Shown here: positions 43,546-63,508 of the stretch, piece after piece | How positions within the stretch are numbered: the first letter of the stretch is position 1 | Layout of the letters: every line of letters begins with the position of its first letter | Assembly (NCBI RefSeq): GCF_024494725.1 | Contig: NZ_JANHDK010000001.1 | Location: forward strand, 186,001 to 250,000 | Direction: 5' to 3' | DNA length: 64,000 nt | Source: Haloplanus ruber | Lineage (GTDB): Archaea; Halobacteriota; Halobacteria; Halobacteriales; Haloferacaceae | The notes under the pieces: model-generated | What the model saw: only the letters and a program-made list of their open reading frames with translations | The model's database searches: none | Told to the model about the DNA's origin: nothing | Translations under genes and position numbers: made by a program

Positions 43546-46500
43546 TCAGGCCCTGTCGTCGGCAGCGGGAGCGTGGAGCTGCGACGGCTGCGTTGCGGAC
43601 GCGCCGTCGGAGGTGTCGTCGCCGGCGCCGTCACCGCCGGTCGCGTCGTCGACCGGGTCGCTCGGCTCGATGGCTTCGGACTGGTTCCCGCCGCTCAGCG
43701 AGATGTTCTGGAAGGGGTTGTTCCCCTCTAAGGTCACCGCACGCGGCTCCTCGATGTCGCCGTTGACCCGTCCCTCCCGAATCTGGACCTGGGAGCGGAA
43801 CTGGACGAACGAGCCGTTCTGTGTGGCCAGCCCCGTCTCGATGGTGTAGGGACCGGTCGCCCGAACGCTCACGTTCGTGTAGCCGTTCGAGGGGCCGTAC
43901 TCGTCGTACCCCGTCGTGGAGTACGGGAGCGTCATCTGGAGTTCGCCGTCCTCGTTCGTCCGGGTCTCCTGGGTGTAGGTGAACGTCTCGTTGGTCGTCG
44001 ACACCCGCATCGGCACCCTCGCGCGGACCGACGTGTTCGGAGGCAGTCCGTCGCTGGTGACCGTCGCTCCGGGCACCTTCTCGAAGGACTTCACCCACGA
44101 GGGCTCGTAGAGCGTCTGTGACGACGGCGGTACGCCCGTCACGGCGAAGGTGCTGCGTGTGCCGCGCTGGTACTGCGAGGCCTTGGTGGCGTTGGACTCG
44201 CTCACCTTCACCAGTCGGTAGTGCTCGAGGGCGGACACCCGCTCGGTCGGGAAGTGCCCCACGCCGCCGATCTGTGACGTGCTGTCGTTGGCGACGTACG
44301 ACTCGGCGGCGGACATGTTGGGGAACTGTCGGAGCATCCGTTGGTCACCCTGTGGCCCGGCGCGGATGGAGATGGTCTCGCCGGCCTGGGTCTGTGCGCG
44401 GCGCTGTTCCCAGTCGACGACGATTGGCTGAGGCTCCATGGCGCTCCCGTGGTAGGCGTAGAGCCGCACCATCAGGCTGTCGTAGTACCGCTGGTTGCGC
44501 AGGTAGAACAGCCCGCGGAGGTTGCTGGCGTACACCGGGCCGTAGAAGTCGCTCTGGGAGACGTTCCCGTCATCGTAGAAGACTGTCGGGGCGGCGAACT
44601 TCGACCGCGGGTTGACCATCTGCCAGTCGACCATCACGTACCGGGTGCCCGTAGCCTCCGCGTCGCGTTCGCCGAGGGCGTCCTGTGCGGCCGACTCGTT
44701 GGGGGCAAGCAGGAAGTTCGCGGCCGACCTGGCACCCTGTTGGAATGGGTTGGCGTTCGGAATCCGCTCGCCGCGGACGGTGATCCAGTGTCCGTAGTCC
44801 CACCACGACTGGACGCCATACGCGCCCGCCGGATAGTCGTAGTCGTCCGTCCGCGAGTAGGTGCCGTAGTACTCCATCTCGTTGTCCGCGCCGCCGAAGG
44901 TTCCGGGGGCGGGCGTGTTCGACTTCATCCACTGGAGCGAGCCGTCCCACTCGGTGATTGCCCCGGTGTTGGTGTCCTGCGCCGCCTGCCAGGCAGTGCT
45001 ACTCCGGTCGACCGAGGGGTTACCAGTGTTGCGGACGCTCATCGGAACGAGCAACACGGGCGTGACGATCAGCATCACGGCCGCGAGGACGGCGAGCACC
45101 TGATACCCCTGCAGGTCACTGAGGGCGTCGAACGACGACGCATCTAAGTCGAGATACCGGATGATCTGTCCGATCAGGTAGGCGTTCGCGATAGCGACCA
45201 CCGGAGCGAGGTAGTAGTGGAACCGCACCTGCGTGAACGCCGCCGAGGTGATGAAGGCCGCCCAGATGACGAAAAACAGCTCCTCGGCGTCGTAGCTCGA
45301 CTGGAGGACGGCCCCGAACAGGATGGCGGCCACGAGCACCACGCCGACAAGTTCCGAGACCACGCCGAAAGCATCGCCGACGGCGCGGAACGGCCCCGGT
45401 GCTACGAACAGGAGGCCGATCAGCGACAGCGACCCAGCGGCGTAGGCGATTCGTTCCGTCTCGCCGTCGCGCACCAGCGGTTTCGCGAGCAGCCAGATGA
45501 CGGCCACCACGCCGGTAAAGAGGGTGAAGCCGTAGTCGGCCATGATCCGGCCTGTGGCGTTCATCGCGTTCTGCTGGAGGATGCCGGGGTCGAGGTACGG
45601 CTGAGCCTCGGAGATGGTGCGGGTCCCTGCGCCGGCGCTGAAGCCGATAAATCGGAAGGCGTTGGCCTGGATCTGTCCGAACAGCGAGGGGAGGGCGACG
45701 GCGACGACACCCGCGGCGACGGCGAAGATGCCGACGACGCCGACGGGGTAGTAACGGCGGTCAAGGTCACGGCCATCGAACGCGCGGGCAAGGCCGGCCA
45801 TAAGCGCCGCGCCGCCGGCAACCGAGAGCGCGACGACGGGCTGGAGGAGGGAGTACTCGACCGGGCTGAACGACGTCGTCTCGAACTGGACCAAGATCAA
45901 GAGAGCGGTCACGGTCATCGACACGACACCGACGAACGCCACCGGTTCGGGTGAGCCGCCGGTGACGTAGTCGCTCGTGAGCTGGTAGACCAGATACGTC
46001 CCGAAGATACCGACCAGCAGGATACCCGGCGGCCAGACCCACATGTAGAGGGCGACGGCGACGCCGGCGAGCGCACTCCAGAGCAGCGGTTGGCGGAGCG
46101 CGTCCACGTCACGGTCGACGACGAGCTCCCACACCGGTTTCTCTCGCGTGGCGACGCCGATGGCGATCAGCAGCGCGAACACCGCAATCGTCTGGAAGAG
46201 CGGTTCAGCGATGTTGTGATCGGCGAAGCCGACGAGGCCACGCTGGAGGAATTGCCCCGGAAGCAACAGGAGGACGACGGCCCCGAAAAGTCCGGCCACG
46301 CGGCCGGCGAGTCGCTTCCCGATGGCGTAGACGGGAATCGCGACCAGCGCGCCAAAGACGGCGGGCGCAACGAGGAGCGTCTTTGCGATCAGCTCCTGCG
46401 AGGGGCTGCCTAGCCCGACGGCCAGCGCCGCTGTCGCGACGATCTGGTCGTACAGCGTGCCGAACTGGCCGACGCTCGTTCCGTAGGGGAACTGCGTCCA

Positions 46501-46734
46501 CGGATCGAACGGCATGGTAAACGGCCAGTTGCGAACCGTATACTCGACCTCGCGGAGGTGATACCACGCGTCGTTGCCGGAGAAGTACACCGATCCGTCC
46601 CGGATGAAGATGTCGTAGGCCTGGAGGCGGATGGCGACCATCACCGCAACGACGATGCCGAGCACGGGGATCTGATACCAGTCGAAAAAGAGGTCAGCGA
46701 CTGACGGGGACCCTTGACTCTGATCGTCGCTCAT
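43546..46734 (-). CDS. aglB: Oligosaccharyltransferase AglB
   Basis: Transfers the lipid-linked glycan to Asn of N-x-S/T sequons outside the cell. The 1062-residue protein has ~13 membrane helices (about residues 20-590) and a large soluble C-terminal domain. The STT3 catalytic signature WWDYGHW is near residue 644 and the first loop metal motif is GNDAWYHLREVEY. The extreme C-terminus is acidic and low-complexity. Full length for the family. Followed by the DUF368 gene and divergent from a family-2 glycosyltransferase, placing it in the glycan region. Confidence 0.97.
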   Translation of the reverse strand: MSDDQSQGSPSVADLFFDWYQIPVLGIVVAVMVAIRLQAYDIFIRDGSVYFSGNDAWYHLREVEYTVRNWPFTMPFDPWTQFPYGTSVGQFGTLYDQIVATAALAVGLGSPSQELIAKTLLVAPAVFGALVAIPVYAIGKRLAGRVAGLFGAVVLLLLPGQFLQRGLVGFADHNIAEPLFQTIAVFALLIAIGVATREKPVWELVVDRDVDALRQPLLWSALAGVAVALYMWVWPPGILLVGIFGTYLVYQLTSDYVTGGSPEPVAFVGVVSMTVTALLILVQFETTSFSPVEYSLLQPVVALSVAGGAALMAGLARAFDGRDLDRRYYPVGVVGIFAVAAGVVAVALPSLFGQIQANAFRFIGFSAGAGTRTISEAQPYLDPGILQQNAMNATGRIMADYGFTLFTGVVAVIWLLAKPLVRDGETERIAYAAGSLSLIGLLFVAPGPFRAVGDAFGVVSELVGVVLVAAILFGAVLQSSYDAEELFFVIWAAFITSAAFTQVRFHYYLAPVVAIANAYLIGQIIRYLDLDASSFDALSDLQGYQVLAVLAAVMLIVTPVLLVPMSVRNTGNPSVDRSSTAWQAAQDTNTGAITEWDGSLQWMKSNTPAPGTFGGADNEMEYYGTYSRTDDYDYPAGAYGVQSWWDYGHWITVRGERIPNANPFQQGARSAANFLLAPNESAAQDALGERDAEATGTRYVMVDWQMVNPRSKFAAPTVFYDDGNVSQSDFYGPVYASNLRGLFYLRNQRYYDSLMVRLYAYHGSAMEPQPIVVDWEQRRAQTQAGETISIRAGPQGDQRMLRQFPNMSAAESYVANDSTSQIGGVGHFPTERVSALEHYRLVKVSESNATKASQYQRGTRSTFAVTGVPPSSQTLYEPSWVKSFEKVPGATVTSDGLPPNTSVRARVPMRVSTTNETFTYTQETRTNEDGELQMTLPYSTTGYDEYGPSNGYTNVSVRATGPYTIETGLATQNGSFVQFRSQVQIREGRVNGDIEEPRAVTLEGNNPFQNISLSGGNQSEAIEPSDPVDDATGGDGAGDDTSDGASATQPSQLHAPAADDRA

Positions 46735-46844: not shown

Positions 46845-47987
46845 ATGCGTCGTATCCGCAACGCTGCCGTGGGTCTGCTCGGCCTGACGGGGCTTCCCTA
46901 CCTCTGTTATCTCGCCGTCGCAGTGATCCTCGACCCGGAGGGGTCACCCGCCGACAAGCGGCCGGCGGAGCCGACCATCAGCATCGTCCTTCCGACGTAC
47001 AACGAGGAGCGCATCGTCGAGGGAAAGCTTTCGGAACTGGTCGACCTCGACTATCCGATGGAGCACGTCGAAGTCGTCGTCGTCGACTCCAGCGACGACG
47101 AGACACGCGACATCGTCCGGTCGTTTTTCGCCGACCGGGACGCGCCCACGCTGACACTCATCGAGGAGGACGAGCGCCGCGGCCTCTCGCCTGCGCTCAA
47201 CGACGCGTACGCGGCGGCCGCGAACGAGGTGGTAGTGAAAACCGACTGTGACTCCCGCATCGCCGCCGACGCGCTCCGCGAGGCGGCGGCAAATCTGGCC
47301 GACCCGTCGGTACGCGCCGTGACCGGACGGAACGCCGAGGTGCTCGGCGGCAGCGCCGTTGAGGCCGGCTACCGCGACATCCAGAGTCGGATTCAGGTCC
47401 TTGAATCCCACCTCGATTCGACGCTTATCTTCCACGGACCGTTCTCGGCGTTCGAAAACGACGCCATCGTTCCCATCGACTCCGACTCCATCGCCGACGA
47501 CTCGGAGTTGGCGCTCCGCATCCGGAAAAATGGCGGCCGGGCGGTGTTCGATCCAGCCATCCGCTACAAGGAGGCCGCCCACTCCGAGTTCCGGAAGCGC
47601 CGCCAACAGAAGGATCGGCGAGCGATGGGCCTGCTTCGTCTCCTCTGGCGTCAGCGGTCGATGCTCGGGGGGTTCGGCAACTACGGCCGCGTCGTCCTGC
47701 CCTTCAACTGGTGGTTCATGCTGATCTCTCCGTGGCTTCTGATGACCGGGTTGGTGCTGTCGTCGGCCGCTGCGGTCGGTCTCGCCGGTCCCCTGGGACT
47801 ACTCGTTCCCGCCGGCGTCGTCGCGTTCGTCCGTGCCGGATCGCGGGACGCACTCGGCCGCCTTCAGCCGGCGTACTCGCTGTTCGACACGCAGGTGTCG
47901 CTGTTCAAGGCGAGCGTGACGCTGCTCCGCGGTGGCGGCTCAGAAATCTGGGACGTGGACCAGGAGTTGCGCGACGTCTACGAGTAA
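46845..47987 (+). CDS. Glycosyltransferase family 2, membrane-associated
   Basis: A 380-residue GT-A glycosyltransferase. The core reads SIVLPTYNEERIVEGKL, EVVVVDSSDDETRDIV, and VVVKTDCDSR (DxD-like, near residue 144), then the ADDSELALRIR region and C-terminal membrane segments (VVLPFNWWFMLISPWLLM, LAGPLGLLVPAGVVAFV). One N-terminal helix (LLGLTGLPYLCYLAVAVIL) is also seen. It most likely adds or polymerises a sugar for the S-layer glycan. A purine-rich GGGAGAG precedes the ATG at 46845; a weak frame runs upstream to 46734 opposite aglB's start. Confidence 0.87.
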   Translation: MRRIRNAAVGLLGLTGLPYLCYLAVAVILDPEGSPADKRPAEPTISIVLPTYNEERIVEGKLSELVDLDYPMEHVEVVVVDSSDDETRDIVRSFFADRDAPTLTLIEEDERRGLSPALNDAYAAAANEVVVKTDCDSRIAADALREAAANLADPSVRAVTGRNAEVLGGSAVEAGYRDIQSRIQVLESHLDSTLIFHGPFSAFENDAIVPIDSDSIADDSELALRIRKNGGRAVFDPAIRYKEAAHSEFRKRRQQKDRRAMGLLRLLWRQRSMLGGFGNYGRVVLPFNWWFMLISPWLLMTGLVLSSAAAVGLAGPLGLLVPAGVVAFVRAGSRDALGRLQPAYSLFDTQVSLFKASVTLLRGGGSEIWDVDQELRDVYE

Positions 47988-48059
47988 TCAACGGCTCTCG
48001 TACCATTCGACGAACCGGTCGATCCCCGAGTCGAAGTCGTTCCGGATCCCCCGCTGAAC
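47988..48059 (-). pseudogene. C-terminal remnant of an NDP-sugar epimerase
   Basis: Read on the minus strand this stretch gives VQRGIRNDFDSG followed by IDRFVEWYESR and a stop. That ending is typical of haloarchaeal NAD-dependent epimerase/dehydratase proteins of surface-sugar pathways. The rest of the gene is absent: sequence to the right is unrelated and visibly more AT-rich. It marks the left border of the rearranged island. Confidence 0.6.
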
Positions 48060-48254
48060 GATGCTGCTTGTCTTCGTGGGCAACAATATCCGAACAACAC
48101 ATATACCTCTGCAAATGACCAATACACACGGAATGAGTGTCGACCTATTTTCCTTCTCGCTCGCTGTCGTTCACGAATGCTGCTACTACGAGCGTTATGA
48201 TGCCGAACACGTGGGCGAGACCATCGTGCGGACGCTCAATGCACCAATATATAG
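48060..48254. other. AT-rich junction, no supported gene
   Basis: Nothing here is assignable. It contains AT-rich stretches (ACACATATACC near 48100) and an open frame starting at 48061 (MLLVFVGNNIRTTHIPLQMT) whose residues match nothing I know. It begins directly after the epimerase remnant. Confidence 0.5.
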
Positions 48255-48569
48255 CGGGAGGAGTACGAGAGAGTTGTGCTGCCGTTCAAGTGGTGCTTCG
48301 TGATTGTCTCGCCATGGCTGCTGGCTGCCACGCTTGTATTTGGGTCCGTGGCAGTCGTCTCGTTGTTTGATGTTGTCAGACTGGCGGCGACCGCTGCAGT
48401 CAGCGTCTTCGCGTGCCTCGGGCAGAGGTACTCGTTCGGTCCCGTGCAGTCACTTTACCCTATTTTCGACACGCAGGAGCCTCTCCTGCGCGTGAGCGTG
48501 GAGCTGCTTCCCGGGGAGGGTGACAGCACGTGGGAAGTTGACGTAGAACTGCAAGAGGCGTGTGAATGA
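48255..48569 (+). pseudogene. 3' remnant of a family-2 glycosyltransferase
   Basis: This region encodes ERVVLPFKWCFVIVSPWLL and later QSLYPIFDTQEPLLRVSVEL and STWEVDVELQEACE. These align with the C-terminus of the intact glycosyltransferase at 46845-47987 (GRVVLPFNWWFMLISPWLL; QPAYSLFDTQVSLFKASVTL; EIWDVDQELRDVYE). The catalytic domain is missing and an in-frame stop lies just upstream at 48252-48254, so this is a diverged remnant of a paralogue. A GTG at 48276 gives a 97-codon frame overlapping the next gene by ATGA, so translation of a short protein cannot be excluded. Confidence 0.72.
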
Positions 48570-49624
48570 GGATACTGTTCGTTACGCACCGCTACCCACC
48601 CCACACCGGAGGTATCGAAACGCACGTACAGGAGATTGCGACGCGGCTCGCTGACCGCGGCCACGACGTGACCGTATTCAGCGCGGACGCCAGCTCAGAC
48701 GCACTATCAGAGTGTACGGACGATGGCGTTCGAGTGCGGCGCTTTCGATCTGTTAGTATAGGTGGCGCGTTCTACGTGGCGCCGCAGATGGCGCTCGCAG
48801 TTCGACGGGCCGACGTGGATGTCGTGCATGCGCACAACTATCACGCGCTTCCGTTGTTCTTCGCGGCGCTCGGTGCTACCGACGAGCGGTTCGTTGTGAC
48901 GACTCACTACCACGGCGAGAGTGCGAGCGGCTTTCGGGACGTGCTACTGTCCGTCTACCGGCCGTTCGGTCGGTGGGCGATTCGACAAGCTGACGAATTG
49001 ATTGCCGTGAGCGAGTGGGAGCAAGAACGATTATTGGCGGATTTCGGCATTGACGCCACAGTAATTCCCAACGGTGTGGCTGTTGAGCGGTTCGCCAACG
49101 CCGAACCTGAGGGGCGGAAGCATCCGTACCTGCTATGTGTTGGACGACTAAAGGAGTACAAAGGAGTCCAACACGTGATTCGTGCGTTGCCGGAGCTGCC
49201 CGAGTACGATTTGGTGGTCGCTGGGAGTGGACCGTTCCGGGACGAGCTAGAGCAAATTGCTCGTGAGGAAGGGGTTGCTGACCGTGTTGATTTTCTTGGG
49301 TATGTCGGCGAGGAACGGCTTCCAAAGCTGTACGCTGGGGCGGACGTGTACGTGACGATGTCCGAGTTCGAAGCTTACGGGATGACTGTCGCTGAGTCTA
49401 TCGCTGCTTGCACTCCGGTCGTGATACGCGAAGCCGGAGCACTAACTGACTGGCTTGATTTGGACGGAACTATCAACATCACCCATCCACACTCCTCTGC
49501 ACTCACGAATGCCTTAGAGGCAGCTATTAATGGTACTTGTCCCGACTCACACGCAGTATTAGATTGGGATACCGTCTGTGAGAAATTAATTAAGCTGTAT
49601 CAGGATAGAACAGCAGAACCATGA
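48566..49624 (+). CDS. Glycosyltransferase family 4 (GT-B)
   Basis: A 352-residue GT-B glycosyltransferase. It begins MRILFVTHRYPPHTGGIETHV (acceptor domain) and contains VVHAHNYHALPLFFAA, AVSEWEQERLLADFGI, LLCVGRLKEYKGVQHVIRAL and the donor-binding SEFEAYGMTVAESIA (E-x7-E). It likely adds a hexose to the lipid-linked glycan. Its start overlaps the remnant upstream by 4 bp. A diverged, truncated copy in opposite orientation lies at 54966-55824. GC is lower than in core genes. Confidence 0.88.
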   Translation: MRILFVTHRYPPHTGGIETHVQEIATRLADRGHDVTVFSADASSDALSECTDDGVRVRRFRSVSIGGAFYVAPQMALAVRRADVDVVHAHNYHALPLFFAALGATDERFVVTTHYHGESASGFRDVLLSVYRPFGRWAIRQADELIAVSEWEQERLLADFGIDATVIPNGVAVERFANAEPEGRKHPYLLCVGRLKEYKGVQHVIRALPELPEYDLVVAGSGPFRDELEQIAREEGVADRVDFLGYVGEERLPKLYAGADVYVTMSEFEAYGMTVAESIAACTPVVIREAGALTDWLDLDGTINITHPHSSALTNALEAAINGTCPDSHAVLDWDTVCEKLIKLYQDRTAEP

Positions 49625-49734
49625 TGGTAGTTTCTGTCTGCTCTGATGAATCGAAACCATTAATCTACGAACCGCATTTCTGTTATAGAGTAGAACCGCT
49701 CCAAGGACTTGATACATGATCAAAGTCACTGTGC
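49625..49734. other. AT-rich gap, no supported gene
   Basis: Between the glycosyltransferase stop and the flippase relic lies AT-rich sequence with no coding frame I can support. Confidence 0.4.
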
Positions 49735-49983
49735 TCGCGAGCGGGCAAGAACAAACCCGGACGCCATCACCGAGGACAGCAGCAGTCCTGGGAGAACCAG
49801 CTGTAAGGCGATTTGATACTGTCCCGCAGCAGCACTTCCAAGCACGGCGCTCAACAGGAGGATATCGATTCTCGAGTATGCCGTTCCAACGAATATATTA
49901 GGAATTGAAAACCTGGCGAACTGCCAAAGGCTCCTCAGTGGCCCCCTGTAACCGGCGAGGCTCAATACTCCTGATCTCCGGTG
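49735..49983 (-). pseudogene. Internal fragment of a polysaccharide flippase
   Basis: On the minus strand this codes for SLWQFARFSIPNIFVGTAYS and then RIDILLLSAVLGSAAAGQYQ. It parallels the intact flippase at 53362-54798 (SLWDYARYSTPAAIVGKAYD, RIDVLLLGFLVG). Stops bound the homologous part at both sides, with no N-terminal or C-terminal domains. It is an inverted relic of a Wzx-like protein (MOP superfamily). Confidence 0.7.
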
Positions 49984-50031
49984 CTACCGAGAAGCACATC
50001 TTGAGGGTGTCCGTGATGCTTATCTTACCAG

Positions 50032-51096
50032 ATGTCAAATCTGCCTTTGAAACATAGCTCAGATATGCATGTCGAATATTTTACCACAGCTTCAGATCAA
50101 GACTGTGGAATATCGGACTATACGGATGTATTGATGAACAATATTGAAGGAATTACGACCTCGAAAACAGGTGTCAAACTCAGGTCGTCTGATATTTTAA
50201 ATTACGTTCTTCAGTCATTTAATGCTGGAAAGCATGATGTACTCCATGTTCAACACGAGTACGGGATTTTTGGCCCTATGAGCATAGCTTCATGGCTAGT
50301 CTTCCCGATCTTATGGATCATGTCTCGGCTTCGTGGAACACCCATCATAATCACATTTCACACAGTATGGTCTAATAAGACCGTCAGCCCACCCCTCAGA
50401 CCGCTTAAGAAATTATACGTTTCCCTCAACAATGCTATGCTGCGGGCGGTAGCAGACCACGAGATGTTTCTCTCCGAAGAAGAAAAGAGAATGATGGGTT
50501 CCGATGGATACGTTATTGCACACGGCGTTCCAACCGAAACGCATCCTAATACGACCGCAAAGACTGAACTCGGGTACGAAGAAGACGAACAAATCGTAAT
50601 TGAGCTGGGATACGTTCGACCTGAGAAGGGGCAAAAAGAATTCGCGGAAATGGCAAAGTTCATTGATGCGTCATGTGTCATCGCTGGTGGCCCCCAGAAC
50701 ACACGGGGAGAAGAATACCTTGACATCATCGATACCTCAAACGTTGAGGTCACGGGTGTTCTCAGTAAAAACGAATTTCACGATTGGCTAAACGCCGCCG
50801 ATATTGTGGTCTTGCCGTACCAGACAGTTTCCCAGAGCGGTATCCTCAATTGGGCTGTTGCATACGATACTCCAATCGCTGCCCACGAATTACAGAAGTT
50901 TGTTGAAATGGAAGTTGAGTTCGGCCTCCCAACCACATTTGATAAAGACAACCCTGAGTCGGCTGGATCCGTTGTGAACGAACTCTTGGACAGAGAGGGT
51001 CCACAGGAAGACGCGATTGAAGCGTATCGAGTAGAGAATGGAATGACTAATGTACTTGAATTCCACACTGACCTTTACGCGAGGGTAACGCAATAA
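50032..51096 (+). CDS. Glycosyltransferase (GT-B, family 4-like)
   Basis: A 354-residue protein with a GT-B layout: HDVLHVQHEYGIFGP, IIITFHTVWSN, VAHGVPTETH-like loop (YVIAHGVPTE), ELGYVRPEKGQKEFAEMAKF and ADIVVLPYQTVSQSGILNWAV. A plausible alternative start is the ATG at 50065 (MHVEYFTTASDQDCGISDYTD). It is the first gene of the AT-rich cassette; its stop overlaps the next start by one base (TAATG). GC content and codon use are unlike those of the core genes. Confidence 0.8.
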   Translation: MSNLPLKHSSDMHVEYFTTASDQDCGISDYTDVLMNNIEGITTSKTGVKLRSSDILNYVLQSFNAGKHDVLHVQHEYGIFGPMSIASWLVFPILWIMSRLRGTPIIITFHTVWSNKTVSPPLRPLKKLYVSLNNAMLRAVADHEMFLSEEEKRMMGSDGYVIAHGVPTETHPNTTAKTELGYEEDEQIVIELGYVRPEKGQKEFAEMAKFIDASCVIAGGPQNTRGEEYLDIIDTSNVEVTGVLSKNEFHDWLNAADIVVLPYQTVSQSGILNWAVAYDTPIAAHELQKFVEMEVEFGLPTTFDKDNPESAGSVVNELLDREGPQEDAIEAYRVENGMTNVLEFHTDLYARVTQ

Positions 51097-52067
51097 TGAA
51101 CAACATAGCTAACAAAATACAGTATATAGCCTCTGAACTTTCACAAAATGGGAGCGACCCATACTGGTGGAGACAAAGGTTCGCATCGCGGATTGCTGGA
51201 CCAGCTCTGGGACATATCCACGATAACTCAGGGGTGGACTATATGTCTCGCGACTGGGATAATCTTCTGATTTTAGACGCCTGCCGGGCAGACATGTTTG
51301 AGGAAGTGTTTGACTCCACTCAGTTTGACGAGTATGAGTCCGTCCACTCCATAGGCTGTTCCAGCCCAGAGTGGATGAAAAAAACGTTCCATGGCAAGGA
51401 GTTTCCGGATACGGTCTACGTAACGGCTAATCCTTGGATTTCAAAGATTGCACCAGATTCTTTCCATCATATTGAGAACCTGTGGCTTCGTGATTATGAT
51501 GTTTCAGCTGAGGACCTGGAAGGAGCTGCGGTTTTGGAGGAGGCTGGTCTAGGAGATGTCCCTACGATTTACCCAGACGTTTTGTCTGATGCTGCCCGGG
51601 ATATGAAAAAAGAGTATCCTGACAAGAGGTTGATAATTCATTACTTCCAACCCCACGCACCTTGCGTTGGGAACCCGGATGGATCGCGAAAAGACGAAGT
51701 TCTAAATGAGATGCACCCAGGCGATGATTTAAAAGAGGGGAACGTTACTCGCGAAGAGGTCTGGGAAGCGTATACTGACAATCTCAGGTACGCGTTCTAC
51801 TATGCCGAAGAACTTTCAAGAGACCTAGGTGGACGCTCTGTTTTTACTGCAGATCACGGAGAACTTTTCGGGGAATGGCTGTGGCCTTTCCCCATTCGGG
51901 GGTACGCTCATCCAGACAGCGTTCGTCACCCGAAGCTTACAGAAGTGCCTTGGGCAGTAGTCGAACACGGGGATCGACGTGAGATAACCGCAGAGTCAAC
52001 TTCTCATCACGAGGCCGATGACAGTGTAGTAAATGAACGACTGAAAGACCTCGGGTACAAGGTATGA
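51096..52067 (+). CDS. Alkaline-phosphatase/sulfatase-fold protein (first of pair)
   Basis: A 323-residue protein of the alkaline phosphatase superfamily. Elements include DNLLILDACRADMFEEV (metal-binding Asp and a Cys near the nucleophile position), IIHYFQPHAPC and the metal-site TADHGELFGE. It probably cleaves or transfers sulfate or phosphate on a sugar, as seen in haloarchaeal glycan loci. The C-terminus ends VNERLKDLGYKV, matching the partner gene's ending. ATGA overlap with the following gene. Substrate unknown. Confidence 0.75.
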   Translation: MNNIANKIQYIASELSQNGSDPYWWRQRFASRIAGPALGHIHDNSGVDYMSRDWDNLLILDACRADMFEEVFDSTQFDEYESVHSIGCSSPEWMKKTFHGKEFPDTVYVTANPWISKIAPDSFHHIENLWLRDYDVSAEDLEGAAVLEEAGLGDVPTIYPDVLSDAARDMKKEYPDKRLIIHYFQPHAPCVGNPDGSRKDEVLNEMHPGDDLKEGNVTREEVWEAYTDNLRYAFYYAEELSRDLGGRSVFTADHGELFGEWLWPFPIRGYAHPDSVRHPKLTEVPWAVVEHGDRREITAESTSHHEADDSVVNERLKDLGYKV

Positions 52068-53365
52068 GAAGAGTTGCACTCATAGTTCTTGACTGCGTGA
52101 GGAAAGATTATTTCGATGAGAATGCGACTCAGATAAAAAAGATGGCAGATCTTGACGTTGACGAGTGCTACGCTGCAAGCTCTTGGAGTGTTCCGAGTCA
52201 TTCTTCTTTGTTTACTGGAACGCTCCCTCACGAACATCAAGTACACTCGTACAACACAGATTACAGCATTCTAAAAACATTCTTTGAGGAGGTGGAATCA
52301 GAGGGAATTAGTGCGAATGGAGCAGTCTCCGATGCGTTCAATGCTGACAAACTATTTAATGAGTTTGTTGCATTCTCCGGGAAGCAAGAAATCACACCAG
52401 ATGCGGTGACATTTAAAGACGTTGTAGAGTATGAAGCGGGATTACAGCGCATCGTCGAGTATCTAAGACAAGCGATTGACGACGGGAAGCTCAAACACAG
52501 CTTGATAAATGGTATCGGTATAAAAGCCAATCACTTCATCAAAAGACTGCCGATCTACCCATTTGGGGATCACGGCGCCTCACAGGTTACTAAACGTCTC
52601 AGTGATAGCGATGCGGACTTCGTTTTTTGTAACTATATCGATGCACACGCCCCGATGCAGAATCATCGTTATATTGAGTCAAATTTCCCTAAGGGATGGC
52701 ACTCAAATCAGATTTCTATAGAGGATATCCGAGATTCCGAGCTAGAAGCTTCTCAGCGAGATCTCAATAAGTATCACAACCTCTACTCAAAGACAATCCA
52801 ATATCTTGATAGCAAGATTGCTACATTTGCTGAGGAGATGCCAGATGATATGACACTAATCATCACAGCCGATCATGGTGAAGAAATGCTCATGGACGGT
52901 GAATCCGATTTGGGCCATACGGGCTTTTCACAATCTCTTCTCCATGTTCCGTTCGTAATCATTGGTTCAGACGCAAAATACGACGGAGGAACCGTTTCAC
53001 ACTTGGACGTTCCAGCGATGGTTGAACAACTCTGGGAGTCAAGAGAACTTACAGTCCCGACTCGTGAATTTGTTCTGAGTGAGCGCCCGGGTATGATGTT
53101 CTACGATGGGGATAATCCGTGGTGGAACCGTGCCATCCGGGCCGTAACTGTCAACGGAATTAGGTGGCAATGGGATGATTTAGGTAATTCACACAAGGTT
53201 GAGCTCACTAAGTCAAAGGAGGAAAAGAAAGTAGAGGCTAAGATTCCAGCTGAGTATAAAGACATGTTTGACGGAACAGTTGATGAACTTGGCGACGATA
53301 GCCAGAATATTGAGGTAAGTAATCAAGTGGAAACCCGTCTCAAAGAACTTGGATATAAAATATGA
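52064..53365 (+). CDS. Sulfatase-family protein (second of pair)
   Basis: A 433-residue sulfatase-fold protein: LIVLDCVRKDYFDEN (metal ligand Asp), YAASSWSVPSHSSLFTGTLPHEH (Ser at the position of the formylglycine residue; the pattern S-x-P-S-H replaces C/S-x-P-S-R), DAHAPMQNH and ITADHGEEMLMDG. It ends VETRLKELGYKI, like its neighbour. Members in glycan clusters act on sulfated or phosphorylated sugars; some transfer groups instead. The short overlap (ATGA) on both sides suggests strict co-translation in a single operon. Substrate unknown. Confidence 0.8.
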   Translation: MRRVALIVLDCVRKDYFDENATQIKKMADLDVDECYAASSWSVPSHSSLFTGTLPHEHQVHSYNTDYSILKTFFEEVESEGISANGAVSDAFNADKLFNEFVAFSGKQEITPDAVTFKDVVEYEAGLQRIVEYLRQAIDDGKLKHSLINGIGIKANHFIKRLPIYPFGDHGASQVTKRLSDSDADFVFCNYIDAHAPMQNHRYIESNFPKGWHSNQISIEDIRDSELEASQRDLNKYHNLYSKTIQYLDSKIATFAEEMPDDMTLIITADHGEEMLMDGESDLGHTGFSQSLLHVPFVIIGSDAKYDGGTVSHLDVPAMVEQLWESRELTVPTREFVLSERPGMMFYDGDNPWWNRAIRAVTVNGIRWQWDDLGNSHKVELTKSKEEKKVEAKIPAEYKDMFDGTVDELGDDSQNIEVSNQVETRLKELGYKI

Positions 53366-54798
53366 GCGACGCCAGCGAAATGAACCTAGGATGGGAATCT
53401 GTCAAGGGGATCGCTGGTAAGTTCGGACAGGCAGCCACTGGATTTGTCGGAATTCTAATTTTCACGAGAATTGTCGGGAAGTCCGATTTTGGTGGTTTCT
53501 ACCTTCTCCTGTCTCTTGTGATGATCGCAGACCGTCCCATCAGAGGACTTGGTCAGGCTGTTGCAAAAAGATGGTCAGAAGATGGTGCACCGAAACGAGA
53601 GATTCTCGGTACGGTGCTGGTTGTTAACGTGTGTGCATCTCTTGTGGCGGGGGTTGGTGCGTTTCTCGCACGGGATATCCTTGTATCCTATACCAGCCTT
53701 GAGGGGTCACCACTCCTTTTTGCCGCCCTCTTTGGATCTATTGCATTCTTTTTTCCTTTTCAACAAATGATGGGGGCGGAGGGGTGGCCCGCCAAACAGA
53801 CATGGAACGATACCCTCCGGTCGTTCCTTACACTACCACTTCAGCTCGTCTTAGTGGTGAGCGGTCTTGGTGCCCTCGGAATGGGATATGGATTGGTCGC
53901 CGCTACGCTTCTTGTCGTCCCAGTTGCCATTTATTTCGTCCGCGTCCATCCGTCTTTGCCCTCTCGTGAGACGGTCCGATCGCTGTGGGACTATGCGCGA
54001 TACAGCACCCCGGCAGCTATTGTGGGAAAGGCATACGATAGGATTGACGTGCTTCTCCTGGGTTTCCTTGTTGGGACTACCTCTGTCGCGAATTATGAGG
54101 TTGCTCTGAGACTCACCGTCCCAGCCCTATTCGTCTCAGGCGTCCTCTCAAGCGCACTTATGCCGAAGATTTCCAACACCATTTCGAAGGGTGGAGAGTT
54201 CGTTGATGATATAACGAATTCAGTAAGCTATGTAAGCATCCTCGCAGTTCCCATCTTTTTTGGAGCACTTGCAATCCCGAGACCACTCGTCGTGACGGCG
54301 TTTGAGCCGCAATACGCCGATGCTGCGCCGTATCTGATCGGACTTGCACTATATCAGTTGATCTCAACTCAGACAGTGATCTATTCCCAGACTCTGTCTG
54401 GAATGGATCTCCCAGATATTCAATTCAAAATCCGAGCAATTACGCTGACGTTCAACGTTATTATCGGGGTTACTCTTGCACTCACCGTTGGTCCACTTGG
54501 TATTGTAATTGCGACCGTTCTTGCTGAGTCGCTAAAATACGGTTTGTCGGTGAGACAAGTTCTTAATCAGGTTGACGGGGTCGAAGTCATCCCAAAGCCA
54601 CTCATATTACAAATCATCTCAGGCACCATGATGTTCCTGATTGTCAATTTCCTTCAAGCACGATTGACTATCCAGTCTTGGGTCACTCTCGGGTTTACTG
54701 TTGGTGTAGGGGCGATTGTCTACGCTGCTTGCCTCTTCGCAATCTCTCCACAGGTTCGGTTCACCGCACAGGCCGTGGTCCGCGATGCTGTAACATAA
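53362..54798 (+). CDS. Wzx-like polysaccharide flippase (MOP family)
   Basis: A 478-residue membrane protein with 12-14 helices, starting MSDASEMNLGWESVKGIAGKFGQA. It has the family's typical segment VGIFTRI-like GILIFTRIVGKSDFGGFYLLLSL and later SLWDYARYSTPAAIVGKAYD. Moves lipid-linked oligosaccharides across the cytoplasmic membrane. Starts with an ATGA overlap at the sulfatase stop and is the last gene of the cassette. GC is low like its neighbours. A broken paralogue lies inverted at 49735-49983. Confidence 0.87.
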   Translation: MSDASEMNLGWESVKGIAGKFGQAATGFVGILIFTRIVGKSDFGGFYLLLSLVMIADRPIRGLGQAVAKRWSEDGAPKREILGTVLVVNVCASLVAGVGAFLARDILVSYTSLEGSPLLFAALFGSIAFFFPFQQMMGAEGWPAKQTWNDTLRSFLTLPLQLVLVVSGLGALGMGYGLVAATLLVVPVAIYFVRVHPSLPSRETVRSLWDYARYSTPAAIVGKAYDRIDVLLLGFLVGTTSVANYEVALRLTVPALFVSGVLSSALMPKISNTISKGGEFVDDITNSVSYVSILAVPIFFGALAIPRPLVVTAFEPQYADAAPYLIGLALYQLISTQTVIYSQTLSGMDLPDIQFKIRAITLTFNVIIGVTLALTVGPLGIVIATVLAESLKYGLSVRQVLNQVDGVEVIPKPLILQIISGTMMFLIVNFLQARLTIQSWVTLGFTVGVGAIVYAACLFAISPQVRFTAQAVVRDAVT

Positions 54799-54965
54799 TT
54801 CAGGCGTGAAATCCTCGACATGACCTTGGCCATTGCCTTTGTTGGCTAATGGGATGCATTATCTGTCATCATCTGACGATGACCCGTTTCCCTCGGCAAT
54901 GTTACGACGGTTTCTTTGTTATTCTCTCACACTCGGTTGGTTCGGAATATACTTCAATGAGTTCG
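54799..54965. other. AT-rich gap, no supported gene
   Basis: Between the flippase stop and the glycosyltransferase relic; I see no assignable gene. A forward open frame at 54833-55366 is mostly antisense to the relic. Confidence 0.4.
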
Positions 54966-55824
54966 CTAACTACATTGTCCCCAAGTTGGAATCTGTTCAG
55001 ACGGTGATTGCTCAACAACTGACCGTACAGCGTTACTTAGCTCCAAGGCCGATGTATCTGACACGCCTATCACGCCGTCTCGTCGTGTCCAATTCCTCAG
55101 ACCGCCTTTCTCCCGGACCACGCAAGGTGTCCCTGCGGAAAGCGCTTCGACTACTATTATTCCGTACGCTTCAAATTTGGAGAGGGCTAAATAAACAGCA
55201 GCACCTGAGTACAATTTGGGGATACGCTCGTCCTCAGCGTACCCAAGGAAGTCGACTCGATCGCTCACGTACTCTTCACGGGCGATCCGTTCCAGTTCGT
55301 TGCGATACGGACCGCCCCCTGCGATCACGAGGTCATATTCTGGAAGCTCCGAAAGCGCCCGAATAACGTGTTGAACTCCTTTGTACTTTTCCAGCCGACC
55401 AACGCACGGCAGGTACTGCCGGTCGCGTCGCTCCGCCTCCGCGTTTGCGAACCGGTTGATGTCCACGCCGTTAGGAATCACGGTGGCCTCGACTCCAAAG
55501 TCTTCTTCTAGACGCTCTCGTTCCCAATTGCTAACCGAAATTAAGTCGTTGGTCCGTCGAACAGCATATCGTCCGAGGGGGCGGTACCCCGACAGCAGCA
55601 CATTTCGAACACCGTTCGCGCTCGCTCCGTGATAATGAGTCGTTACGACGAGTTGCTCATCGGTAACGCTAGCTGCGGCGAATAACAGCGGAAACGCATG
55701 GTCGTTATGAGCGTGTATGACATCAGCGTCCGCGCGCCACACAGCGATCGCTATCTGTGGCGCGAAATAAAATGATCCAGTGTGACTAATCGATCGAAAA
55801 CGGCAAACCCGCACCCCAACATCC
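54966..55824 (-). pseudogene. Truncated family-4 glycosyltransferase
   Basis: The minus strand encodes a protein closely similar to the glycosyltransferase at 48566-49624. Examples: RFRSISHTGSFYFAPQIAIA, ADADVIHAHNDHAFPLLFAA, LPCVGRLEKYKGVQHVIRAL and KFEAYGIIVVEALSAGTPCV. About 60 N-terminal residues are missing; the open frame runs on to 55955 only through unrelated antisense sequence. The C-terminus also stops early (after IPTWGQCS) compared with the intact copy. Both ends are therefore lost and I read it as a relic, in opposite orientation to the intact paralogue. Confidence 0.75.
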
Positions 55825-55953
55825 GTTGTTCGAAGCCACGGCGCGGTGGTCGACCGGACCGCCGACCGCGACGGGGCCGACGCCGTGCGAATCGTCGGCG
55901 GCGCGGACGTCGTCGCCCCACACCGTTTTGTCGCGGTGGTCCCAACGGCGGCC

Positions 55954-57444
55954 ATGACCGTCTGGCTCCTCGGCGACCAGCTCCACCCCGAGAGTCACGT
56001 CCTCGACGACGCGGAGCGGGTCCTCCTGATCGAAGCGACGGCCTTCGCCGACCGAAAGCCGTACCACCCACAGAAGCTCGGTCTCGTCTTCGCGGCCATG
56101 CGTCACGCCCGCGACGCCCTCCGCGAGGCGGGCTACGACGTGACCTACCGACGGGCACGGACGTTCGGCGACGCCCTCGACGCTCACTTCGACGCGCGTC
56201 CGGGCGACGACCTGCGACTCATGCGCCCGCCGAGTCACGGCGCCGCCGAGCGTCTGCGGCACCTCGTCGAATCCCGCGGCGGGTCGCTCACGCTCGTCGA
56301 CGACGACCGGTTTCGCTGCTCGCCCGAGGCGTTCGACGCGTGGCACGACGGCGACGGATTCCGTCACGAGGATTTCTACCGATGGATGCGACGCCGTGAG
56401 GGCGTGTTGATGGACGGCGACGACCCCGTCGGCGGGCAGTGGAACTACGACGAGTCGAACCGCGAGACACCGCCCGACGACTGGTCGCCGCCATCCGTCC
56501 CGCGGTTCGAACCGGACGACCTGACCCGCGAGACGCTGGACTGGGTCACCGAGGAGTTCGACACTTGGGGCGAGTCGACGGGGTTCGCGTGGCCGGTGAC
56601 ACGGGCCGAGGCCCTCGATGCGCTCGATCACTTCGTCGAACACCGGCTCTCCCCGTTCGGCCCCTATCAGGACGCCATGGTCGGCGGCGAGTCCGCGCTC
56701 GCTCACTCCCTGCTGTCGTCGTCGCTGAACTTGGGGCTGCTCGGCCCACGGGAGGTGATCGACGCCGCCGTCGACGCCTGGGAGCGTGACGCAGCGCCGG
56801 TCGAGAGCGTCGAGGGGTTCGTCCGGCAGGTGCTCGGCTGGCGGGAGTTCATGCGGCACGTCTACCGGCGGACGATGCCCGACCTCGTCGAGTCGGACCT
56901 GCTCTCACGGTCGCGTGACCTCCCGCCCCTGTACGAGGGCGAGGAGACGTCGATGCGGTGTCTGGACGAGGCCGTCTCACACGTCTACGACCGCGGCTAC
57001 GCCCACCACATCGAGCGGCTGATGGTGCTGTCGAACTTCGCGTCGCTCTACGGCGCCGACCCCCAGGAACTGAACGAGTGGTTTCACTTCGGGTTCGTCG
57101 ACGCCTACCACTGGGTGACGACGCCGAACGTCCTCGGAATGGGGACGTTCGCCACCGACGTCTTCACCTCGAAGCCGTACGTCTCCTCCGGCAACTACGT
57201 CGACCGGATGAGCGACCACTGTGCGGCGTGTGCCTACGATGTCGACGCGACGACCGGCGACGACGCCTGTCCGTTCAACGCACTCTACTGGGACTTCCTC
57301 GACGACCACGAGGAGACACTCCGGGGAACGGGCCGGATGGGGCTGATGTACTCACACCTCGACCGGAAGGACGACGCGGAGCTATCGGCCATCCGGGAGC
57401 GGGCGGCGACGGTCCGCCGTCGCGCCCGCGACGGACAACTGTAG
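55954..57444 (+). CDS. Fe-S cryptochrome/photolyase-related protein (PhrB-like)
   Basis: A 496-residue flavoprotein of the FeS-BCP/CryPro group, which in bacteria repairs (6-4) photoproducts in light. It begins with the N-terminal fold TVWLLGDQLHPESHVL. Cysteines at about 336, 423, 426 and 439 (SMRC, DHCAACAYD, DDACPF) match the [4Fe-4S] ligand spacing of PhrB as I recall it. FAD-binding helices around QNFA-type NFASLYGADPQELNEWFHFGFVDAYHWV are present. The ATG at 55954 matches the conserved start; earlier in-frame codons are unlikely. It is the first core gene right of the island. Confidence 0.92.
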   Translation: MTVWLLGDQLHPESHVLDDAERVLLIEATAFADRKPYHPQKLGLVFAAMRHARDALREAGYDVTYRRARTFGDALDAHFDARPGDDLRLMRPPSHGAAERLRHLVESRGGSLTLVDDDRFRCSPEAFDAWHDGDGFRHEDFYRWMRRREGVLMDGDDPVGGQWNYDESNRETPPDDWSPPSVPRFEPDDLTRETLDWVTEEFDTWGESTGFAWPVTRAEALDALDHFVEHRLSPFGPYQDAMVGGESALAHSLLSSSLNLGLLGPREVIDAAVDAWERDAAPVESVEGFVRQVLGWREFMRHVYRRTMPDLVESDLLSRSRDLPPLYEGEETSMRCLDEAVSHVYDRGYAHHIERLMVLSNFASLYGADPQELNEWFHFGFVDAYHWVTTPNVLGMGTFATDVFTSKPYVSSGNYVDRMSDHCAACAYDVDATTGDDACPFNALYWDFLDDHEETLRGTGRMGLMYSHLDRKDDAELSAIRERAATVRRRARDGQL

Positions 57445-57460
57445 CCGTCGCTAGTCGCGT

Positions 57461-57476
57461 GAAAAAGGGAAAATTC
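57461..57476 (-). terminator. T-tract terminator of the cold-shock gene
   Basis: The minus strand reads TTTTCCCTTTTTC about 45-60 nt past the stop of the cold-shock gene: two T runs of four and five, the usual archaeal termination signal. It lies 17 bp beyond the convergent photolyase stop. Confidence 0.5.
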
Positions 57477-57520
57477 CGATCCAGCGTCGTTTCGAGCGGT
57501 CGGGATGTCCCGGCCCGGAC

Positions 57521-57715
57521 TTACAGTCGCTGGAGGTTGGTTGCCCGCGGGCCCTTGTCGGCCTGCTCGATGTCGAATTCGACTTCCTGTCCCTCTTCGA
57601 GGTCCGGGCCGCCGATATCTTCCATGTGGAAGAACACGTCTTCGTCGGAGTCTTCGGTCTCGATGAACCCGTAACCGCCGGTGTCGTTAAAGAACGCAAC
57701 CGTACCTGTCGCCAT
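57521..57715 (-). CDS. cspA: Cold-shock domain protein
   Basis: A 64-residue single cold-shock domain that binds single-stranded RNA or [34 protein letters not shown] carries the RNP1-like GYGFI and RNP2-like DVFFH motifs; the rest is acidic as in halophiles. ATG at 57715 gives the standard family length; ten codons upstream are unconserved. An AT-rich 5' region (57755-57805) contains possible TATA elements. Confidence 0.95.
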
Positions 57716-57863
57716 TGCGTCGTGATGGACGAAATGCGGAGACATAAGGATTCCGGCACGTCGTGAGAAGTAGTTAGAAATAAAATAATTTTAGATAAAA
57801 GACACGAACTAGACGTACGGCGGCCGACGGTGTGACGTCCGTCCACTCTCGTCGGCGGCCGGG

Positions 57864-58439
57864 CTATTCACCCCCGCGGCCGAGCGTGTGGAACTCGTCG
57901 TTCGGGCGCATGTCGGCGAAACTCGCCAGGCGGTTGCTAAGGTTGAAGAAGGCCGTCACGGCGCCGATATCCCAGATTTCGCGCTCGGAGTAGCCGGCCG
58001 CACGGAGGGCGTCGAGGTCGTCGTCGGTCACCGCGGCCGGCCGTTCGGTGAGTGTCACCGCCACGTCGAGCATCACGAGACGCTCGTCGCTCACGTCCGC
58101 GGTCCGATAGTTGGCGACGAGTTGGTCCGCCAGCGTCGGATCGTCGGCGTAGAGTCGGACGAGTGCGCCGTGTGCAACGTTGCAGTAGTAACAGTGATTC
58201 ACCCCCGAGACGGCGACGACGATCATCTCCACCTCCTCGCGGTCGAGCGCGGTCTCCTCGACTAAGGCGTCGTGGTAGTCGACGAACGCGCGGAACTGCT
58301 CGGGGGCGTACGCCATCGCCGCGAAGACGTTCGGCGTAAAGCCCGCCCGCTCGGTCTCGGCGTCGATACGCTCCCGCAGGTCGGCGGGCAGGTCGGCACG
58401 GTCGGGCACCGGGAATCGGGCCATCGCCTCGTCGTTCAT
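57864..58439 (-). CDS. AhpD-fold peroxidase-related protein
   Basis: A 191-residue carboxymuconolactone-decarboxylase-like protein of the 'uncharacterized peroxidase-related' type. The central helix bears GVNHCYYCNVAHGALVRL with a redox C-x2-C and the nearby His, as in AhpD. The C-terminal FFNLSNRLASFADMRPN matches the family. Two starts are possible (58439 and 58424). It may reduce hydroperoxides; this is from family knowledge only. Confidence 0.88.
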   Translation of the reverse strand: MNDEAMARFPVPDRADLPADLRERIDAETERAGFTPNVFAAMAYAPEQFRAFVDYHDALVEETALDREEVEMIVVAVSGVNHCYYCNVAHGALVRLYADDPTLADQLVANYRTADVSDERLVMLDVAVTLTERPAAVTDDDLDALRAAGYSEREIWDIGAVTAFFNLSNRLASFADMRPNDEFHTLGRGGE

Positions 58440-58472
58440 GCGCTCTCGTGGGGCGGCCGGGGACAAAAGCGC

Positions 58473-58979
58473 TCACCCCACCCGCGCCGTGAGAAGGGCC
58501 GCGGCCGCGGTGGCACAGACGCCGAGTGCGAGAAGGAGGTAGTTGGCGAGTGTGTTGTCCGCACGCGTAAGCGAGAGCGAGAACGACCGACCGGACAGCG
58601 GCCAGAGCAGAGGCACGCCCGCGGGTGTCAGGGCGTCCGCGAGGAGGTGTGCGAGTACTGTGAGGGCGCCGACAGCGAAGCCGAACGGGACGAGCGTGGT
58701 GTGGCCGCCGTCGACGACGACGGCGAGGACGGTACCCGCACCGGCCCCAACGGCGCCCATCAGGGCGGCGAAGGCGAGCGTGTGGGTCAATCCGCGGTGG
58801 GTGAGACCGGGAATCCGGTGGTCGACATCGGGCAGCATCGCCAACCAGAGCATGACACCGCCGCCGACGACGGCGAGGTCAGGGCGGCCGGCGAGCACGA
58901 GGGCGGCACCGGGGAGCGCGAAGACGAGCAACGAGACACCCAGGTGCCCGCGTCGGTACACGTCCGGACGTGATCCCAC
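58473..58979 (-). CDS. YdjM-like membrane-bound metal-dependent hydrolase
   Basis: A 168-residue membrane protein with four hydrophobic segments and conserved polar motifs: LPDVDHRIPGLTHRGLTHTL and HLLADALTPAGVPLLWPLSGR. These are the signature of the DUF457/YdjM family (LexA-regulated inner-membrane proteins in bacteria, predicted metal-dependent hydrolases). Substrate unknown. Separated by 33 bp from the downstream AhpD-fold gene on the same strand. Confidence 0.88.
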   Translation of the reverse strand: MGSRPDVYRRGHLGVSLLVFALPGAALVLAGRPDLAVVGGGVMLWLAMLPDVDHRIPGLTHRGLTHTLAFAALMGAVGAGAGTVLAVVVDGGHTTLVPFGFAVGALTVLAHLLADALTPAGVPLLWPLSGRSFSLSLTRADNTLANYLLLALGVCATAAAALLTARVG

Positions 58980-59049
58980 GGGGACCAGAACCTTTCGGCC
59001 GGGGGTAGGCGCACGTTTAAGTCAATTCCTCGCATAGCGCCCACGAACG

Positions 59050-60672
59050 ATGTCAGGGGACGCGGTATCGGGCTCCGACGGGCCGTTCGAGTCGCTCCGA
59101 CGACGGGTCGTCCGCACCTACGAGATGCTCCGCGGGTCGAGTATCGACGCCCGCCCGTTCCGCCCAGGCGAGGACGGCCCGCTGGCGCGTTTCGACGTGC
59201 CGCCGACCCACGAGGAACTCGACCGGTACTGGGTGAACGCCCCCTTCGCCTACGTGGTGATCACCCACGATACCGCGGAGAGCGAACACCGGTACCACGC
59301 GGTCGAACCCGAGTTGAACGCCTTCGAGTCCGGCCTGCTCGAACGGGTTCGCGAGGACATTCGCGACCCGCTTCTCTTCCGCTCCGAGGACGAGAATCCG
59401 ACCGACGAGGCGATCATCGAGGGCGAACTCGAATCGCTGCTGGAGGAGTACGGCGTGGAAGTGGATATGCGAACGTTCCACAAACTCCGCTACTACCTGG
59501 TTCGGGACTTCAACGGCTTCGGGCGCCTCGACCCACTCATGCACGACCAGCACATCGAGGACGTGTCGTGTGACGGCTACGACCTCCCAATTTTCGTCTA
59601 TCACGACCAGTACACCGACGTGGCGACGAACGTGGTCTTCGAGGACCCCGACGAACTTGACAACTACGTCGTCAGACTCGCCCAGCAGTCCGGCCGGCAC
59701 ATCAGCGTCGGTGACCCCGTCGTCGGGACGACGCTGCCCGACGGCTCCCGGGTCGAACTCGCTCTCGGCGAGGAGGTGACCCCCCGGGGGTCGGCTTTCA
59801 CCATCCGCCAATACGCCGACGACCCGTTCACCCCTATCGACCTCATCGAGTACGGCACCTTCAGCGTCGAGCAGATGGCGTACCTGTGGCTGGCCATCGA
59901 GAACAACAAGTCGCTGATCTTCGCCGGCGGCACGGCGTCGGGAAAGACCACCTCGATGAACGCGGTGTCGATGTTCGTCCCGCCGCGCTCGAAGGTGCTC
60001 TCCATCGAGGACACCCGCGAACTGTCGCTGTATCACGACAACTGGCTATCGAGTGTCACCCGGGAGCGACTCCACGAGGGCGCCGACATCGACATGTACG
60101 ACCTGTTGCGCTCGGCGCTCCGTCACCGCCCCGAGTACATCATCGTCGGCGAGGTGCGTGGCGGCGAGGCCGTGACGCTGTTTCAGGCAATGAACACCGG
60201 CCACACGACGTTCTCGACGATGCACGCCGACAGCATCGAGACGGTGATCAACCGACTGGAGAACGAGCCGATCAACGTCCCCCGGGCGATGATCCAGTCG
60301 CTCGACTTGCTCTGTGTCCAGCGGCTCACCCGCCTCGACGGCGAGCGAGTGCGGCGCTCCGACGCGATCAGCGAGATTGGGGGGATCGACCAACGAACCG
60401 GCGAACTCGACTACTCCAACGCCTTCCGCTGGGACGCCGACACGGACACCTTCGACCGACAGGACAGCTCCCTCCTCGACGAGATTCAAGACGACCGCGG
60501 CTGGTCGCGCACGCGCCTCTTAGAGGAACTCCGTGACCGACGTCGGTTCCTCACCGCTCTGCTAGAGCAGGGAATCACCGACTACCGGCGCTTTACCGCC
60601 CTCGTCAACGAGTACTACGCCGACTCGGAACGGGTTCTCGACCGCATCGACGCCGAGGCCGAGACGCAGTGA
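59050..60672 (+). CDS. pilB: PilB/TadA-type secretion ATPase
   Basis: A 540-residue hexameric type II/IV secretion ATPase driving type IV pilus-like assembly. Walker A is GGTASGKTTSMNA (near residue 295), the Asp box VLSIEDTREL, the Walker B/His box region EYIIVGEVRGGEAVTLFQAMNTGHTTFSTMHAD. The C-terminus continues about 110 residues past the ATPase core. Followed by the PilC-like gene with a GTGA overlap (stop/start), so it is the ATPase of that pair. No pilin is in the window. Confidence 0.93.
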   Translation: MSGDAVSGSDGPFESLRRRVVRTYEMLRGSSIDARPFRPGEDGPLARFDVPPTHEELDRYWVNAPFAYVVITHDTAESEHRYHAVEPELNAFESGLLERVREDIRDPLLFRSEDENPTDEAIIEGELESLLEEYGVEVDMRTFHKLRYYLVRDFNGFGRLDPLMHDQHIEDVSCDGYDLPIFVYHDQYTDVATNVVFEDPDELDNYVVRLAQQSGRHISVGDPVVGTTLPDGSRVELALGEEVTPRGSAFTIRQYADDPFTPIDLIEYGTFSVEQMAYLWLAIENNKSLIFAGGTASGKTTSMNAVSMFVPPRSKVLSIEDTRELSLYHDNWLSSVTRERLHEGADIDMYDLLRSALRHRPEYIIVGEVRGGEAVTLFQAMNTGHTTFSTMHADSIETVINRLENEPINVPRAMIQSLDLLCVQRLTRLDGERVRRSDAISEIGGIDQRTGELDYSNAFRWDADTDTFDRQDSSLLDEIQDDRGWSRTRLLEELRDRRRFLTALLEQGITDYRRFTALVNEYYADSERVLDRIDAEAETQ

Positions 60673-62771: not shown

Positions 62772-62803
62772 GGGCTTATCCGCATCCAGGTCGAGAGACG
62801 GTC

Positions 62804-63442: not shown

Positions 63443-63508
63443 CCGGTCGGGACGGGTGCGCGCACAGACGTGATGGACTTAACCCCTCGGCGTCGATACT
63501 AGAGATCG

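Follow-up and report, generated by a model that had tools for sequence, protein, structure and literature searches.

It is very probable that the variable part of the N-glycan gene cluster in a Haloplanus genome was replaced by an AT-rich operon whose close relative is found in Halorubrum, that an inversion of ~76 kb with an IS6-family element at one end cut this cluster in two, and that the product of the genes is a decorated lipid-linked N-glycan for AglB. The locus lies in a stretch of 64,000 nucleotides (contig C1:186001-250000, hereafter the window) of a haloarchaeal genome of 3.28 Mb, in which four intact, overlapping and AT-rich genes (c1-c4, 50065-54798) are found upstream of aglB, the gene for the N-glycan oligosaccharyltransferase, between remnants of other glycan genes (Table 1). 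The gene order from aglB is GT2 (divergent), a second GT2 remnant overlapping GT4a, c1, c2, c3, and c4. aglB, which lies to the left of the region treated in an earlier sequence-only reading, is the key to the reading of the locus.

Table 1. Features of the N-glycan cluster and of the adjoining inversion junction (window positions)
Feature	Position	Strand	Evidence and remarks
aglB, N-glycan oligosaccharyltransferase, native	43546..46734	-	Pfam STT3/AglB_core/AglB_L1; 74-83% aa identity in Haloplanus genomes
GT2 glycosyltransferase, intact, native, divergent from aglB	46845..47987	+	Pfam GT2; 81% aa to GT2 adjoining aglB in congener G001
Epimerase, C-terminal remnant	~47990..48062	-	Translation; 85% DNA over 48 bp to Haloferax massiliensis stretch adjoining aglB
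Second GT2, C-terminal remnant, 97-105 aa	48255..48569	+	4-bp overlap with GT4a
GT4a, intact family-4 glycosyltransferase	48566..49624	+	Pfam; 75% aa to the GT4 at the equivalent operon position in Halorubrum laminariae
flipR, flippase remnant (middle part)	~49727..49975	-	Partner half ~70 kb off, at far inversion breakpoint
c1, family-4-like glycosyltransferase	50065..51096 (ORF opens 50032)	+	Pfam GT1/GT4 clans; start by alignment to Halorubrum c1
c2, putative alkaline-phosphatase-superfamily transferase	51096..52067	+	No Pfam match; Ser90 at nucleophile position; no membrane segment predicted
c3, putative sulfatase-like transferase	52064..53365	+	PF00884/PF01663; Ser42 at nucleophile position
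c4, lipid-linked oligosaccharide flippase	53362..54798	+	Pfam Polysacc_synt; tree places it (100/97) as sister of the Halorubrum laminariae flippase
GT4b, N-truncated family-4 glycosyltransferase, cut at inversion junction	54966..55832	-	Pfam; synteny
77-bp photolyase/aldo-keto-reductase intergenic DNA	55833..55909		Inverted second copy at C1:165628-165704 of the same genome (G000)
Photolyase-related protein (DPRP), native block moved beside glycan cluster by inversion	55954..57444	+	Pfam DPRP; head to head with aldo-keto-reductase gene in congeners

The sequence-only reading had described an intact, AT-rich operon of four overlapping genes amid broken ones. Its overlaps were reproduced, the c1 stop and c2 start sharing TAATG (1-bp overlap) and both the c2/c3 and c3/c4 junctions being ATGA (4-bp overlap each), and its hand count of 22 G/C among the 60 nucleotides of 52081-52140 is exact. 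The low GC of the four genes was confirmed by GC per kb, which is 0.44-0.59 in the island versus 0.678 +/- 0.028 (minimum 0.598) in the remaining window, and by GC3, which is 0.44-0.50 in c1-c4 versus 0.84-0.89 in aglB, GT2, photolyase, and flaI; this gap between c1-c4 and native genes is far beyond chance. The GC3 of GT4a and GT4b is ~0.54-0.60. The start of c1, previously put at 50032, is most likely 50065, where M12 of the open reading frame aligns with the start of Halorubrum c1. All of the announced pieces (of an epimerase, a family-2 glycosyltransferase, a flippase, and a family-4 glycosyltransferase) could be located as genuine remnants, yet three of the surrounding genes, GT2, GT4a, and aglB, are intact; besides the flippase and GT4 pieces, both of which are indeed on the minus strand, the epimerase remnant is inverted too. 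Two or more gene sets are superimposed at the cluster (two GT2s, two GT4s, and two flippases). Positions 48155-48253 hold a further remnant, seemingly the terminal part of a minus-strand membrane-protein gene; its DNA is 72% identical to sequence immediately upstream of aglB in genome G022 (L049). The short repeats of the region, direct or inverted, are of low identity, chance-like, and of no explanatory value. At the left edge of the window (1-388), ~10 tandem copies of a 39-bp unit (117-bp super-unit), whose length is divisible by three, continue past the edge.

Comparison with other haloarchaea points to a foreign source of the operon. The DNA from aglB to GT2 is collinear with congener G001 at 79% identity up to 47983 (approximately the GT2 stop), where the similarity ends, and by this collinearity aglB and the adjacent GT2 are native up to that position. 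Among 11 congeners that carry aglB, the upstream DNA was compared in 10, and c1-c4 were absent within ~16 kb upstream of aglB in every one of them; congeners carry other gene sets there, distant relatives of single cassette genes (22-40% identity) are present upstream of their aglB, and the four congeners listed in the c3 search gave no strong match. The nearest relative of the cassette was found in Halorubrum laminariae R60 (L107), whose genes are arranged as aglB, GT2, GT4, c1, c2, c3, GT4x, and c4 in overlapping ORFs, with GC contents of 0.52/0.49/0.45/0.55 for c1-c4. Phylogenetic trees placed c2 (support 100/98) as well as c4 as sister to the Halorubrum laminariae genes; the GT4 tree gave no resolved placement. 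Protein identity to Halorubrum laminariae is 80-82% for c2 and c4, 46% for c1, and 37% for c3 (72% in the first 40 residues and then 10-45%), and aglB itself is only ~49% identical between the two genomes. The cassette therefore looks foreign to Haloplanus on sequence grounds, and the transfer would have been into this genus. Considering the low identity of c1 and c3 next to that of c2 and c4, the operon also looks mosaic, with swaps inside it, an alternative being faster evolution of c1 and c3; the same values imply that Halorubrum laminariae is not the donor itself.

Conservation of the arrangement with intact flanks in many relatives, which the sequence-only reading had named as evidence against itself, was not seen within the genus; the four genes are, however, intact and in the same order in two other genomes, Halorubrum laminariae, which has the extra gene between c3 and c4, and the more distant G205. 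Thus, the cassette is not unique to this locus but a module that recurs. The proposed history of repeated exchange of N-glycan genes is borne out by the other gene sets in congeners, by the Halorubrum relative, and by the superimposed gene sets. Viral or plasmid carriage of the cassette was rejected: c3 had no match in phages and c2 none in IMG/VR with the patterns used, 48000-55830 had no DNA-level match in plasmids, and the relatives on megaplasmids, recognisable at the protein level, share less than 60% identity.

Part of the breakage is due to the inversion, which is not visible in the window by itself. Relative to congener G007, positions 120-46780 of the window are collinear, 55915-64000 are inverted, and the DNA from C1:165691 onward is also collinear, a pattern most simply accounted for by a single ~76-kb inversion (C1 165.63k-241.83k) spanning the DNA between the glycan cluster and the photolyase promoter region. 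The photolyase and aldo-keto-reductase genes stand head to head in G007, G008, and G002, and also in G010 with a broken photolyase; their separation in the Haloplanus genome studied here is therefore derived. In G010 (L203 8718-9107), only residues 1-130 and a C-terminal piece of the photolyase-related gene are left. The far breakpoint holds the AglJ gene, a flippase fragment (flipL), and a complete IS6-family element of 697 bp with inverted ends (C1:164931-165627; L206 18732-19428), which lies exactly at the breakpoint, its last base abutting the 77-bp copy of photolyase/aldo-keto-reductase intergenic DNA. Its transposase scores 183 bits with NF033587 (cut-off 125), and no target duplication was found at this element. 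In L190, one flippase matches flipL with one part and flipR with the neighbouring part (60% and 70%), so a single resident gene was split and its halves moved apart. IS6 elements are known to generate inversions and deletions by intramolecular replicative transposition and to form pseudo-compound transposons (PMC7986276). However, a simple replicative inversion would leave two IS6 copies where one is present, and 77 bp is more than IS6 elements duplicate at their targets; the junction may therefore also stem from a staggered break or from several successive steps. Misassembly is an unlikely source of the inversion, as no other IS6 copy in the genome exceeds 83% protein identity to the one at the breakpoint, and a duplication of 77 bp is too short and too diverged to mislead an assembler. 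The genome holds ~12 other IS6 copies or fragments, several broken and some near a sulfatase-rich region on contig C2 (260-300 kb), and the glycan cluster of congener G007 also has an IS6 transposase (81% aa; L031 8957-9574).

In another genome (L192), a flippase gene faces a reversed GT4-GT2 pair that is followed by aglJ, and GT4/GT2 genes are found beside aglJ in other genomes as well. When the inversion is undone, c4 and GT4b take such an arrangement near aglJ; before the region was inverted, the cassette thus probably occupied the usual site, flanked by aglB and aglJ. With the inversion undone, flipL-IS6 and flipR also flank GT4b-c4-c3-c2-c1, and it might be supposed that an IS6-bounded pseudo-compound unit carried the cassette and GT4b into the resident flippase gene, one IS6 later inverting the region. 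The known behaviour of these elements and the IS6 copy in the glycan cluster of G007 are consistent with such an entry, but the single IS6 copy lies at the far breakpoint instead of two copies flanking the cassette, a search of window positions 46.7-56 kb revealed no IS6 end, and the flippase-GT4-GT2-aglJ end of other genomes means that GT4b beside c4 may stem from ordinary homologous replacement. We consider this route somewhat unlikely. That nothing was imported at all, the cassette being ancestral to Haloplanus and lost in every sampled congener, is far less credible: although related clusters adjoin aglB in many haloarchaea, implying an old gene set, the low GC3 in a uniformly high-GC host, the sister position of c2 and c4 to a Halorubrum, the sharp native/foreign boundary at the GT2 stop, and the absence from 10 congeners all argue against it.

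The cassette genes likely act in N-glycosylation, judging from their linkage to aglB and aglJ. aglB adjoins them at one end, the gene at the far breakpoint that would have closed the other end is an aglJ (TIGR04182, 456 bits, cut-off 325), and glycosyltransferases (GT2, GT4a, and c1) and a flippase (c4) stand between; aglJ, parted from aglB by the inversion here, is near aglB or glycosyltransferase genes in several genomes. It is quite improbable that the operon makes a capsule or exopolysaccharide instead of an N-glycan: c4 and c1 come near teichuronic-acid flippase and glycosyltransferase models, at low score, and contig C2 has a second sulfatase-rich region with IS6 remnants, but, in several families, genomes carry relatives of c1, c2, c4, GT2, and GT4 next to aglB and aglJ or in the interval between them, and the cassette has no polymerase, chain-length, or export gene. 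From the observed gene content and linkage, we infer that AglJ would prime dolichol phosphate and that GT2, GT4a, and c1 would extend the lipid-linked glycan, to which c2 and c3, as cytoplasmic Ser/Thr-nucleophile transferases, might add phosphate-type or sulfate groups; c4 would then flip the decorated lipid-linked glycan, and AglB would transfer the glycan to Asn of S-layer and appendage proteins.

Both c2 and c3 have the Asp/His metal ligands and the nucleophile of the alkaline phosphatase superfamily, the ligands being invariant in the alignments (D61, D253, and H254 in c2; D10, D270, and H271 in c3). The nucleophile position of c2 is Ser in 34 of 48 sequences and Thr in the other 14, with no Cys, whereas c3 has the motif [S/T]-x-P-S-H (Ser in 20 and Thr in 3 of 23), in which His replaces Arg in 23/23; neither protein shows the formylglycine sulfatase motif C/S-x-P/A-x-R. 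Thr cannot be converted to formylglycine, and these Ser/Thr families are therefore not formylglycine sulfatases. The nearest folds to the c2 model (pLDDT 89) were the MCR-1/EptA phosphoethanolamine transferases (E 1.5e-7, with a modest TM of ~0.45), and those to the c3 model (pLDDT 87) were sulfatases (E 1e-16).

Alkaline-phosphatase-superfamily proteins also occur in the aglB-anchored cluster of Halobacterium salinarum, where deletion combined with mass spectrometry identified VNG1056C and VNG1057C as N-glycan sulfotransferases, while a third such protein, VNG1063H, had no apparent part in sulfation (PMC11980604). The published qPCR primer for VNG1063H can be read as VHYFQPH, containing the c2-family motif (HYFQPH), which cautions against taking sulfate for granted as the group added by c2. 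No identity of c2 or c3 with the Halobacterium sulfotransferases is claimed: the NRC-1 primer sites of VNG1056C, VNG1057C, and VNG1063H are absent from the type-strain contigs L266, L260, and L141, although L266 (DSM 3754) carries a c3-like/c2-like tandem. This tandem (L266 4976-7396) hints that glycan decoration genes vary between strains of the species. We put forward, as a speculative proposal that is more probably wrong than right, that c1-c4 could be a transferable N-glycan decoration module with its own flippase and two non-formylglycine transferases, in which c2 would add a phosphate-type group and not sulfate, and the specificity genes c1 and c3 would undergo exchange of their own inside the operon, separate from c2 and c4, which are conserved. 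The c2 proteins form an uncharacterised family common in aglB clusters, and the Ser/Thr nucleophile makes their chemistry directly testable.

Virus pressure on surface sugars is a plausible driver of such exchange, and the literature gives no uniform picture of how loss of the N-glycan affects viruses: when aglB was deleted in Halorubrum lacusprofundi, one virus showed no change and another increased (PMC10384203). Exchange of surface-sugar genes is a known kind of event, of which the locus in the window is a new and unusually well-resolved case. It offers a dissected example in which the conserved oligosaccharyltransferase stays and the glycan genes feeding AglB are exchanged, and the scars are still visible, namely a doubled gene set, a flippase severed into two halves, and a mobile element at one of the inversion breakpoints. 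In Haloferax (PMC5867893) and in Haloferax gibbonsii LR2-5 (PMC7921747), aglB-proximal clusters likewise combine a conserved aglB with neighboring glycosyltransferase, flippase, and modifier genes that vary among close relatives, which has been attributed to transfer. In contrast to those clusters, the operon studied here could be traced gene by gene to a Halorubrum relative, and a defined inversion with an IS6 element at one breakpoint accounts for some of the breakage. The Halorubrum laminariae R60 cluster shares the order aglB/GT2/GT4/c1/c2/c3/c4, the overlaps, and the low GC, but differs in the extra GT4 between c3 and c4 and in its divergent c1 and c3. The swapped cell-wall genomic island of Haloquadratum walsbyi (PMC4535781) is similar in that surface genes are swapped among lineages via recombination and mobile elements; it is, however, centred on surface-glycoprotein genes, whereas the locus described here is centred on the aglB cluster.
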